This document shows positions 6,930-10,447 of a stretch of DNA of 64,000 nt, piece after piece; position 1 is the stretch's first letter, and every line of letters begins with the position of its first letter. A program made the translations under genes and the position numbers. The DNA is taken from the NCBI RefSeq assembly GCF_033170155.1, contig NZ_CP137079.1:1-64000 (forward strand), read 5' to 3'. The DNA comes from Raineyella sp. W15-4. GTDB taxonomy: Bacteria > Actinomycetota > Actinomycetes > Propionibacteriales > Propionibacteriaceae. Under the pieces are notes generated by a model. The model did not search any database. It saw only the letters and a program-made list of their open reading frames with translations, and had not been told where the DNA came from.

Positions 6930-7313
6930 TCAGCGCCGAACGTCGAGAGTCCTGTACTGCGATGCGAGAAGGCGCCTGTCGGCGGTGATCAGCGCCAGAT
7001 CGTCGGTCTGCGCCTGCGCGACCAGCATGGCGTCGAACGGATCCCCGTGCGGCAGATCGATCCTCGGCAACGCCACCAGGTGTCGATGCTCGATCGGCAG
7101 TTCCTCGACCCCCAGTGCACCGACACCGGCGACGAACTCGGTGGCATCGTGGGGCAGCTTTCCCTTCGCGGCTTTCAGGGTCAGTTCCCACAGGCTGACG
7201 GTCGACAGAAAGACCTCTTCGGAGGTCTCGATCACGTCGAGTGCCGTCTGCCCGATCGCTTGTGGTTCGAACAGCAGCCAGAGGAAGACGTGGGAGTCGA
7301 TCAGCGCCTTCAC
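6930..7313 (-). CDS. PIN-domain toxin (VapC family)
   Basis: 127 residues. The PIN ribonuclease acidic residues are visible: D5 in MKALIDSH, Glu in LWELTLK, Asp in HGDPFDAMLVAQAQ, and Asp in LITADRRL. It probably cleaves tRNA or rRNA when free of antitoxin. The start is GTG and overlaps the antitoxin stop (GTGA), so the pair is translationally coupled. The DPFDAMLVAQA form is characteristic of the PIN subgroup paired with Phd/YefM-like antitoxins. Confidence 0.9.
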   Translation of the reverse strand: MKALIDSHVFLWLLFEPQAIGQTALDVIETSEEVFLSTVSLWELTLKAAKGKLPHDATEFVAGVGALGVEELPIEHRHLVALPRIDLPHGDPFDAMLVAQAQTDDLALITADRRLLASQYRTLDVRR

Positions 7314-7579
7314 TGCGGGGGAGCCTCATCGAGGGACGCCGCCACAGCGTCGGCCAGGTCGGAGTCCGGGCCGATGATCTCCTCGCTGTCGTAAGCGAAG
7401 TCGGGATGCCGCCGGTCCCGCCAGACGCCGACCGCGATCCGGCGGCGAGACGGTACGGGGGCGAGGATCGCCTCGGCGTGACCGTACGCCCCCACGTAGA
7501 TGATCTCGCCAGCGTGTGCACGCTTGACCAGCTTGCTGAGGTTCGCTTTCGCCTCAGAGATCGACACGACATCGCCCAT
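7310..7579 (-). CDS. antitoxin of the Phd/YefM type
   Basis: 89 residues, upstream of and overlapping the PIN toxin. The N-terminus GDVVSISEAKANLSKLVKRAHAG has the Phd/YefM fold signature (beta strand, then the helix ISEAKANLSKL), which normally binds DNA as a dimer. The acidic C-terminal part (DSEEIIGPDSDLADAVAASL) would wrap around the toxin. The ATG is preceded by a -10 hexamer with 6 nt between them and no Shine-Dalgarno sequence. Self-repression by the toxin-antitoxin complex is the usual mode in the family. Confidence 0.88.
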   Translation of the reverse strand: MGDVVSISEAKANLSKLVKRAHAGEIIYVGAYGHAEAILAPVPSRRRIAVGVWRDRRHPDFAYDSEEIIGPDSDLADAVAASLDEAPPQ

Positions 7580-7591: not shown

Positions 7592-7641
7592 CCGGTCTGG
7601 CCAGGGTCGGACCAGCTTGCGGTATAACTCGTAGGTGCGTT

Positions 7642-7687
7642 TCGCCCGTGCACTTGTGTTCGACTACCGACACAAGTGCACGGGCGA
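7642..7687. repeat. perfect 18-bp inverted repeat, hairpin family copy 1
   Basis: TCGCCCGTGCACTTGTGT (7642-7659) faces its exact complement (7670-7687) across a 10-nt loop TCGACTACCG. A second element at 10400-10447 shares the stem base and the loop core GACTACC but has different, compensated stem pairs. It lies between the antitoxin promoter and the 3' end of cysK. I see no gene or other structure in 7688-7926. Confidence 0.8.
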
Positions 7688-7926: not shown

Positions 7927-8859
7927 TCAGTCGAGCAGGTCGGAGTACAGCGGGGTGGACAGGTAGCGCTCGCCCCAGTCGGGGATGATCGCGACGATCG
8001 TCTTGCCGGCGTTCGCCGGATCGGCGGCCAGGTCGGCGGCGGCGCGCAGCGCGGCACCCGACGAGATGCCCACCAGCAGGCCCTCTTCCTTGGCGGAACG
8101 GCGCGCCCACTCGATCGCGTCGTCACCCTTCACCTGGATGATGCCGTCGACGACGTCCTTGTTGTAGATCGCCGGGACGAAGCCCGGGCTGATGCCCTGG
8201 ATCTTGTGCGGGCCCTTCGGGCCACCGGACAGCACCGGCGACTCCGCGGCCTCCACGGCGTAGATCTTCACCTCGGGCTTGCGGCTCTTGAGCACCTCGC
8301 CGACACCGGTCACGGTGCCGCCGGTGCCCACACCGGACACAACGATGTCGACCTTGCCGTCGGTGTCGGCCCAGATCTCCTCGGCGGTCGTCTTGCGGTG
8401 GATCTCGACGTTGGCCGGGTTCTCGAACTGCCGGGCCAGGATGGCGCCGGGGGTGTTGGCGACGATCTCCTCGGCGCGCTTGTTGGCGCCGGGCACGCCG
8501 TCGGCCGCCGGGGTCAGCACCAGCTCGGCCCCGAAGGCACGCAGCACGGCGCGACGCTCCTTGGAGAAGGTCTCCGGCAGGGTGATGATCACTCGGTAGC
8601 CACGAGCGGCGCCGACCCACGCCAGGGCGATGCCGGTGTTACCCGAGGTGCCCTCGACGATGGTGCCGCCGGGCTTCAGGGAACCGTCGGCCTCGGCGGC
8701 GTCGACGATGGACACGCCGATGCGGTCCTTCACCGAGTTTGCCGGGTTGTAGAACTCGAGCTTCCCCAGGACGGTCGCCTGAGAATCACCGTAGAGCCGA
8801 TTGATCTTCACCAAGGGGGTGCGACCGATGAGTTTGGTCGCGTCTTCGAAATAGGCCAT
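7927..8859 (-). CDS. cysK: cysteine synthase A (O-acetylserine sulfhydrylase)
   Basis: 310 residues, full family length. It makes cysteine from O-acetylserine and sulfide using PLP. Lys44 in NSVKDR is the Schiff-base lysine; the phosphate and substrate loops are EGTSGNTG (about residue 69) and [10 protein letters not shown], and GISSGAA lies near the C-terminus. The ATG follows GAAGGAAG. No cysE lies beside it. It is transcribed from a promoter more than 240 bp upstream, and the leader encodes a 21-residue peptide with two adjacent Cys codons, which points to attenuation by cysteine supply. Confidence 0.97.
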
Positions 8860-9028
8860 TACCTGACTTCCTTCATGTCGTACGGGTGCTGGGTGGACAG
8901 GGAGAGAATGCGCGCCGGAACGGGCTCCTGAATCAGCTGGAGCCCATTTCCCGAAAGAGAGGACCGCGTTCGGCGGAAGTGTTCCGGCCGACAGCGGTGC
9001 GTGGTGGCGACGTTTCCGGGAGGAATGA
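8860..9028 (-). promoter_or_regulatory. structured leader of cysK downstream of the leader peptide
   Basis: The untranslated part of the cysK transcript. Two hairpins can be drawn: 8970-8991 (TTCCG/CGGAA plus TCGG/CCGA, one bulge, loop 3 nt) and 8922-8945 (GGGCTCC/GGAGCCC, loop 10 nt), followed by the ribosome site next to the cysK ATG. No run of U follows either hairpin, so control of ribosome access is more likely than intrinsic termination (inference). Confidence 0.5.
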
Positions 9029-9094
9029 TCAGGATTCCGGACAACACCTCGTCGCGAAGGAGGGGCTCGACGGGGTGACGCGCTCGGTGATCAT
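9029..9094 (-). CDS. cysK leader peptide with tandem Cys codons (cysteine attenuator)
   Basis: A 21-codon ORF beginning at an ATG that lies exactly 6 nt after a strong -10 hexamer, so it should be leaderless. The peptide starts MITERV and ends ATRCCPES, with two adjacent TGT codons at positions 17 and 18, four codons before the TGA. Leaderless short ORFs rich in Cys codons are known in mycobacteria to control sulfur genes: ribosomes that stall for lack of Cys-tRNA change the fold of the leader and expose the next gene. The placement upstream of cysK fits that scheme fully. Only two Cys codons are present, fewer than in some known examples. Confidence 0.75.
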
Positions 9095-9100
9095 GGCTGA

Positions 9101-9129
9101 ACACTAACGTGAGCTTTGGGAAGGTGCAA
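9101..9129 (-). promoter_or_regulatory. sigma-70-type promoter of the cysK leader transcript
   Basis: -35 TTGCAC (9124-9129), 17-nt spacer, -10 TAGTGT (9101-9106), then TCAGCC and the leader-peptide ATG. It is one of the best promoter matches in the window. The AT-rich run at 9129-9140 lies just upstream of the -35. Confidence 0.7.
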
Positions 9130-9296: not shown

Positions 9297-10322
9297 ATGA
9301 AGATCCTCGTCACCGGTGGCGCCGGCTACATCGGCTCGCACACCGTGCTGCTGCTCCAGGAGGCCGGTCACGAGGTGACCGTCCTCGACAACCTCTCCAA
9401 CTCCTCCCCCGTCGCCCTGCAGCGGGTGGCGGAGTTGAGCGGGCGTGAGGTGCCGCTGGTGCAGGCCGACATCCGTGACCGTACGGCCCTGGATCGGGTG
9501 ATGGCGGACTTCCGGCCCGACGGGGTGGTGCACTTCGCCGGGATGAAGGCTGTCGGCGAGTCCGCCCAGATCCCACTGACGTACTACGAGAACAACGTCG
9601 CCGGCACGATCAGCCTGCTGCGGGCGATGGAGGCGGTCGACTGCCGCACCATCGTGTTCTCGTCCTCGGCCACTGTCTACGGCGACGTCGACGAGATGCC
9701 GCTGACCGAGAAGCTGCCGCTCGACGCGGTCAACCCGTACGGGCGGACGAAGGAGCAGGTCGAGGACATCCTCGCCGACGTGGCAGCCGCCGACCCCCGG
9801 TGGAACATCGCACTGCTGCGCTACTTCAACCCGGTCGGTGCCCACCCGTCGGGCCGGATCGGTGAGGACCCCAACGGCATCCCGAACAATCTGATGCCCT
9901 TCGTCGCCCAGGTCGCCGTCGGCCGCCGGGAGAAGCTGCTGGTCTTCGGCAACGACTACCCGACCCCGGACGGCACCGGCGTCCGCGACTACATCCACGT
10001 GATGGACCTGGGTGACGGCCACGTCGCGGCGATCGAGTACCTGGCCCAGCACGGCGGCCTGCACCGGTGGAACCTCGGCACGGGCCGGGGCTACTCCGTC
10101 CTCGATGTCCGGGCCGCGTTCGAGCGGGCCAGCGGCCGGCCGATCCCGTACGAGATCGTCGCCCGTCGTCCCGGTGACGTCGCCGTGTCGTACGCCGACC
10201 CGTCCTCGGCGCTGGCCGACCTCGGCTGGGCCGCGATCCGCGACCTGGACGAGATGTGCCGGGACCACTGGCGCTGGCAGGAGCAGAACCCGTACGGCTA
10301 CCAGGGCGCGCCGCAGGGCTGA
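9297..10322 (+). CDS. galE: UDP-glucose 4-epimerase
   Basis: 341 residues, family length. It interconverts UDP-glucose and UDP-galactose with tightly bound NAD. The nucleotide-binding loop is GGAGYIGSH (residues 7-15); the catalytic serine/threonine region is SSSATVYG and the Tyr-Lys pair is in NPYGRTK (YxxxK). HFAGMKAVGES, LRYFNPVGAHPSG and GTGVRDYIHVMDL are GalE hallmarks. It stands alone between cysK (divergent) and a non-coding stretch, so it probably serves cell-surface polysaccharide rather than a Leloir operon (inference). Confidence 0.96.
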   Translation: MKILVTGGAGYIGSHTVLLLQEAGHEVTVLDNLSNSSPVALQRVAELSGREVPLVQADIRDRTALDRVMADFRPDGVVHFAGMKAVGESAQIPLTYYENNVAGTISLLRAMEAVDCRTIVFSSSATVYGDVDEMPLTEKLPLDAVNPYGRTKEQVEDILADVAAADPRWNIALLRYFNPVGAHPSGRIGEDPNGIPNNLMPFVAQVAVGRREKLLVFGNDYPTPDGTGVRDYIHVMDLGDGHVAAIEYLAQHGGLHRWNLGTGRGYSVLDVRAAFERASGRPIPYEIVARRPGDVAVSYADPSSALADLGWAAIRDLDEMCRDHWRWQEQNPYGYQGAPQG

Positions 10323-10399: not shown

Positions 10400-10447
10400 T
10401 TCGCCCGCGCGTTCGTGTCTGACTACCAGCACGAACGCGCGGGCGAA
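10400..10447. repeat. perfect 18-bp inverted repeat, hairpin family copy 2
   Basis: TTCGCCCGCGCGTTCGTG (10400-10417) and its exact complement (10430-10447) enclose a 12-nt loop TCTGACTACCAG. The loop core GACTACC and the stem base TCGCCCG match copy 1, while the upper stem differs with both partners changed. It lies about 80 bp after galE. Confidence 0.8.

Follow-up and report, generated by a model that had tools for sequence, protein, structure and literature searches.

Cysteine synthase A of Raineyella sp. W15-4 is encoded on the minus strand of the window, by which is meant the whole stretch of 64,000 nt analysed here (positions 1 to 64,000 of contig NZ_CP137079.1); the genome is a single contig of 3.96 Mb. 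The gene, cysK (7927–8859, 310 aa), was assigned from TIGR01139 (425.8 bits, cut-off 350.95) and PF00291. It is preceded by a Shine–Dalgarno (SD) sequence, GAAGGA, at 8869–8874, and identical bases stand before cysK in the nearest congener, G003. Upstream of this cysteine-metabolism gene, and on the same strand, lies a 21-codon ORF (9029–9094, stop included) that was recognized from the ORF list and from its relatives upstream of cysK. The ATG is at 9094 and the TGA ends at 9029, 169 nt from the cysK ATG at 8859. The peptide terminates in R-C-C-P-E-S, and its adjacent TGT codons (Cys17–Cys18, 9041–9046) are the putative sensor. A −10-like hexamer, TAGTGT (9101–9106), is located 6 nt 5′ of the leader ATG and is separated by 17 nt from a −35-like hexamer, TTGCAC (9124–9129); the ORF is probably leaderless. 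The two hexamers with their spacing, the ORF and its TGT codons are read directly from the sequence, as the preliminary description had given them, and its distance of about 170 nt to cysK agrees with that measured.

The −35 hexamer is weak, agreeing with TTGACA at 3 of 6 positions, and a strict sigma-70 scan called no promoter at the cysK leader. In Streptomyces lividans, according to the available text of PMC8079986, promoters have a −10 of the form TAnnnT together with a weakly conserved −35. Comparison of the −35 hexamers of 19 leaders was uninformative, as 5 reach five of the six consensus bases and the others one to four. Cys codons in the 19 leaders are mostly TGT (47 TGT, 27 TGC). Sampled long GC3-rich ORFs, by contrast, use TGT for the smaller part of their Cys (115 TGT vs 541 TGC), a figure that refers to the window genome alone.

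Divergent from the cysK leader is galE, starting at 9297. A near-identical long palindrome (TTCGCCCG...GACTACC...CGGGCGA) is found at 7641–7687 and again at 10400–10447, bracketing the cysK–galE block, and occurs once more in 20 sampled stretches (L135:7190–7237); it may act as a terminator in both directions or be a mobile element. Also near cysK, on the minus strand at 6930–7579, are genes for a PIN-domain protein and for a Phd/YefM-like antitoxin whose match falls short of the Pfam cut-off; the two are likely to form a type II toxin–antitoxin pair.

Distribution of Cys leader ORFs

Genome scans used a pattern of TANNNT, 5–8 nt, ATG or GTG and an ORF of 6–35 codons in which two Cys are adjacent or three fall within six codons. 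Seven leaderless short ORFs fit the pattern's start within the window, and only the cysK leader among them has a Cys cluster. Across 928 strand-kb of the window genome (window included) two leaderless Cys-cluster ORFs were found, the cysK leader and one elsewhere, and in 1338 strand-kb of locus DNA there were 21, of which 19 are the called leaders. No leaderless Cys-cluster ORF is present in the other sulfur loci inspected in the window genome (L116–L118), namely the region for sulfate assimilation and the nearer two of the cysK-like genes; six other short Cys ORFs are listed in these loci. A fourth CysK match in the genome is distant (29 % identity). A second match to the leader, 23 nt long, was rejected as chance: it is antisense, and by eye its frame resembles a transporter binding protein.

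The preliminary description had proposed that relatives be searched for a Cys-Cys ORF upstream of cysK. In the Propionibacteriaceae, 61 CysK matches at E ≤1e-140 were obtained from 58 of 198 genomes, and the 54 loci with at least 1500 nt of upstream sequence were counted; the seven matches with less were left out. A leader was called where TANNNT was followed after 6–7 nt by ATG or GTG and a Cys-clustered short ORF upstream of cysK. A first pass gave 41 loci with a leaderless Cys-cluster ORF, 4 with an SD-led one and 9 with none. With more upstream DNA, G210 and G202 gained a leaderless ORF, for final counts of 43, 4 and 7. The seven loci in which no leader was called are those of G003, G209, G198, G225, G173, G007 and G211; the leaderless ORF that G211 does have is weaker, its two Cys being apart from each other. 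L030 and L031, two loci of the family, have Cys ORFs upstream of cysK that lack the leaderless pattern.

The 41 leaders of the first pass are 20–27 codons long, with 6 nt (27 leaders) or 7 nt (14 leaders) between the −10 and the start codon. They contain two to seven Cys (median 5), and 72 % of these residues are in the second half of the ORF. The window leader has two, the lowest count found, which it shares with three others (4/41). Two-Cys leaders in relatives include MFARGYTGSHRAITVPRMCCPR and MFARGYTGSGRAVVVTRMCCPR. By eye, among the nearest in sequence to the window peptide is MITMRFATMCCCRASMACPAC, located upstream of cysK in another genus, with which it has in common the start MIT and a core of FAT-M/R-CC. 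Mean identity over an alignment of 19 leaders is 31 %.

Distances from leader to cysK fall into three classes, with none elsewhere: under 450 nt (18 leaders), 1050–1250 nt (12) and 1480–1600 nt (11). Intervening genes are present in all nine inspected loci of the two longer classes. At L009, in the 1050–1250 nt class, these encode a DUF4395 protein (PF14340) and a thioredoxin-fold protein (PF00085); at L045, in the 1480–1600 nt class, the gene encodes a Cys/Met-metabolism PLP enzyme (PF01053), presumably an O-acetylhomoserine sulfhydrylase.

The nearest congener, G003, has a CysK 92 % identical to that of the window. It retains galE, the promoter (TTGCAT, TAGAGT) and the cysK SD, whereas the whole leader is missing, leaving 49 nt between the −10 and the cysK ATG vs 241 nt in the window; the promoter comparison rests on a local alignment (region L005/L143, around G003:C1:992609–992690). 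Given that other genera have the leader, it is simpler to assume that G003 has lost it. Two other congeners gave no match to the leader region and no CysK at E ≤1e-140. G003 is in effect a natural attenuator-deletion strain. The window species and this sister without the leaderless ORF offer a ready natural comparison for the effect of the leader on cysK.

Beyond the Propionibacteriaceae, 18 of 80 named loci have a Cys-dense short ORF with an SD-like site no more than 500 nt upstream of cysK (L049, L052, L056, L059, L061, L062, L065, L067, L073, L075, L077, L079, L084, L086, L092, L093, L095 and L098). The genera are Cellulomonas, Cellulosimicrobium, Oerskovia, Demequina, Isoptericola, Antribacter and Georgenia, and none of the 18 ORFs is leaderless by the pattern used. 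The 1338 strand-kb contained 28 SD-led Cys ORFs: these 18, another 4 ahead of cysK at Propionibacteriaceae loci (L030, L038, L046, L048) and 6 elsewhere. The 80 named and 54 family loci share genomes, and the two counts are not independent.

These observations can be combined in a single reading, which as a whole we consider possible and somewhat doubtful. A Cys-sensing ORF would be an ancient component of cysK operons in actinobacteria, in which the input has been kept while the mode of starting and the output have been swapped. The start would be leaderless in Propionibacteriaceae and SD-led in Cellulomonas, Demequina and others; the output would be SD masking in Raineyella, and certain uncultured Propionibacteriaceae would use an intrinsic terminator instead. 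Whether the first gene is cysK, the DUF4395–thioredoxin pair or the Cys/Met-metabolism PLP enzyme, the leader would keep its place ahead of it. In one lineage of Raineyella it would have been cleanly removed.

Leader RNA and the regulation of cysK

Conservation upstream of cysK at 43 of 54 loci, together with rarity otherwise, gives good support to a cysteine-sensing leader peptide, and the window ORF is probably such a leader controlling cysK. The leaderless Cys leader suggested in the preliminary description is thus strongly supported by conservation. The output mechanism in the window is less certain than the leader itself.

The minimum free energy (MFE) fold of the spacer predicts a branched hairpin at about 8998–8963 and a GGGCUCC/GGAGCCC hairpin at 8945–8922 that lacks a U-tract, both on the minus strand. 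The preliminary description had placed two hairpins before cysK; both are recovered in the fold, but neither is established as the switch, and a predicted pairing between the leader and the cysK SD appears to be a better candidate than either. No intrinsic terminator (GC hairpin plus U-tract) was listed between the window's leader and cysK, and Rfam covariance models run against the window at the gathering threshold gave 0 matches, riboswitches and T-boxes included. Over its full length the leader RNA is of ordinary stability (z = −0.80; 40 of 200 shuffles equally stable). A hairpin between the Cys codons and a downstream ACAACAC word, recurrent by eye, was rejected (p = 0.41 over 19 leaders; p = 0.08 when retested over 17, the two leaders without adjacent Cys being omitted).

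The candidate anti-SD is TCCTTCG in codons 12–14 of the leader (9055–9061), a stretch that a ribosome stalled at Cys17–Cys18 is assumed to cover. In the predicted fold UCCUUCG pairs with the cysK SD at 0.68–0.96 per base, and 5 of 100 shuffled leaders in which the SD was kept pair equally well with it inside the ORF. The predicted openness of the SD core rises from 0.18 in the free RNA to 0.39 when a ribosome occupies the Cys codons, and to 0.29 when it is placed on other codons. With a wider SD window and a different footprint, openness dropped upon stalling, from 0.38 to 0.29. The freed SD is itself predicted to pair with the start of cysK, and in these models release by a stalled ribosome would be partial at best. 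Among the 19 leaders, stalling on the Cys codons is predicted to open the SD by at least 0.10 in five. Most of these leaders do not share the SD pairing inside the ORF: it was equalled by at least 18 of 100 shuffles in 14 of them, and by 5, 6, 7, 12 and 16 of 100 in L001, L045, L014, L013 and L012, respectively. As openness rises by one measure and falls by the other, SD masking is plausible and not secure; masking by codons 12–14 may be the output step at the window's cysK, an assignment that the predictions leave close to evenly balanced.

Beyond the promoter and ORF anatomy and the wide conservation of a leaderless Cys-cluster ORF ahead of cysK, which are observed, we infer cysteine sensing with SD masking as its output, along the following lines. 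A transcript presumed to begin on the leader ATG itself, or no more than two bases from it, would be translated leaderless. When Cys-tRNA is plentiful the ribosome would clear the two UGU codons and depart, UCCUUCG would pair with the SD and translation of cysK would be kept low. Under a shortage of Cys-tRNA the ribosome would stall at UGU-UGU and cover codons 12–14, and the SD would be partly freed.

The same Cys sensor could instead have a transcriptional output, in which a ribosome completing the leader exposes the 169 nt of untranslated RNA to Rho, or refolds the RNA into a terminating structure, so that the transcript ends short of cysK. The available text of Seliverstov et al. (PMC1262725) proposes Rho for Cys leaders without hairpins, and in the related leaders L035 and L041 a GC hairpin and T-run follow soon after the ORF. 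In the window, however, no intrinsic terminator was listed, and the pairing of leader with SD is better than in most shuffles. A transcriptional output here thus seems rather unlikely, with a probability that overlaps that of the cysteine-sensing leader, the sensor being common to both. The terminator-like hairpins themselves are at L035:2441–2462 and L041:1984–2003, soon 3′ of Cys leaders of uncultured relatives. Judging from these hairpins, transcription attenuation is likely at the two leaders and so probably has a place within the family, whose outputs may therefore differ.

Two further readings deny the window ORF a present role. It may have been inherited and be decaying in Raineyella, with cysK no longer usefully regulated, as is suggested by its minimal complement of two Cys codons, by the loss of the leader from G003 with the promoter kept, and by the two other congeners without a match to the leader region. 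Yet start, frame and promoter spacing are retained, the FAT-R-CC core resembles the FAT-M-CC of relatives, and leaders with only two Cys also occur in those relatives, which makes decay unlikely. That a random short ORF happens to lie behind a promoter-like match would be in keeping with the weak −35, the absence of a call in the strict promoter scan and the ordinary stability of the leader RNA. The comparison with related loci already contradicts this: one other such ORF was found in 928 strand-kb, whereas upstream of cysK they are present at 43 of 54 related loci, and chance is accordingly highly improbable. A cysteine-sensing leader peptide controlling cysK is the reading retained below.

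Relation to known cysteine leaders

Raineyella and Propionibacterium acnes are both members of the Propionibacteriaceae. Mycobacterial polycysteine ORFs were reportedly described as cysteine-responsive attenuators by Canestrari et al. in 2020. Cys-rich leaderless short ORFs of mycobacteria had been described in 2015 (Shell et al., PMC4633059, in its available text), and for cysteine genes of M. smegmatis the accessible parts of two papers describe translation attenuation by such ORFs (PMC13236596, PMC9031893). The window leader resembles these ORFs in its probably leaderless start, in its clustered Cys codons, in its location ahead of a cysteine-metabolism gene and in the proposal that ribosome stalling governs the downstream gene. 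In contrast to them, it is found in another actinobacterial family, is predicted to control cysK and has only two Cys; the likeness is one of architecture and not of peptide alignment.

The eight amino-acid leader peptides of Streptomyces lividans listed in the available text of PMC8079986, for Leu, Trp, Ala, Ile, Met and Thr, are similar in being attenuator ORFs, several of them stated to be leaderless, and in that a clear terminator is lacking for some. None of the eight is a Cys leader.

Closer still are the Cys leader peptides predicted by Seliverstov et al. in 2005 for the cys operon of P. acnes and for cbs of Bifidobacterium longum (PMC1262725). As far as the available portion of that paper goes, these share with the window leader Cys runs near the stop, a location upstream of cys genes and no obvious terminator. 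The word ‘leaderless’ does not appear in what is available of its main text, whereas the window leader fits the leaderless pattern. Among the matches listed in a literature search, no title concerned cysK leaders of this type, either in other Propionibacteriaceae or in Cellulomonas and its allies; papers of this kind could exist, above all in journals beyond those covered. The switch outside mycobacteria put forward in the preliminary description finds support in the conservation of the leader in Propionibacteriaceae, but the idea is not new, Cys leaders outside mycobacteria having already been predicted in 2005. The window's leader is a further case of a known type of switch, with a minimal two-Cys sensor, and the comparison takes the cysteine-sensing leader beyond the mycobacterial case and the prediction of 2005, showing it to be conserved through much of another family of actinobacteria.
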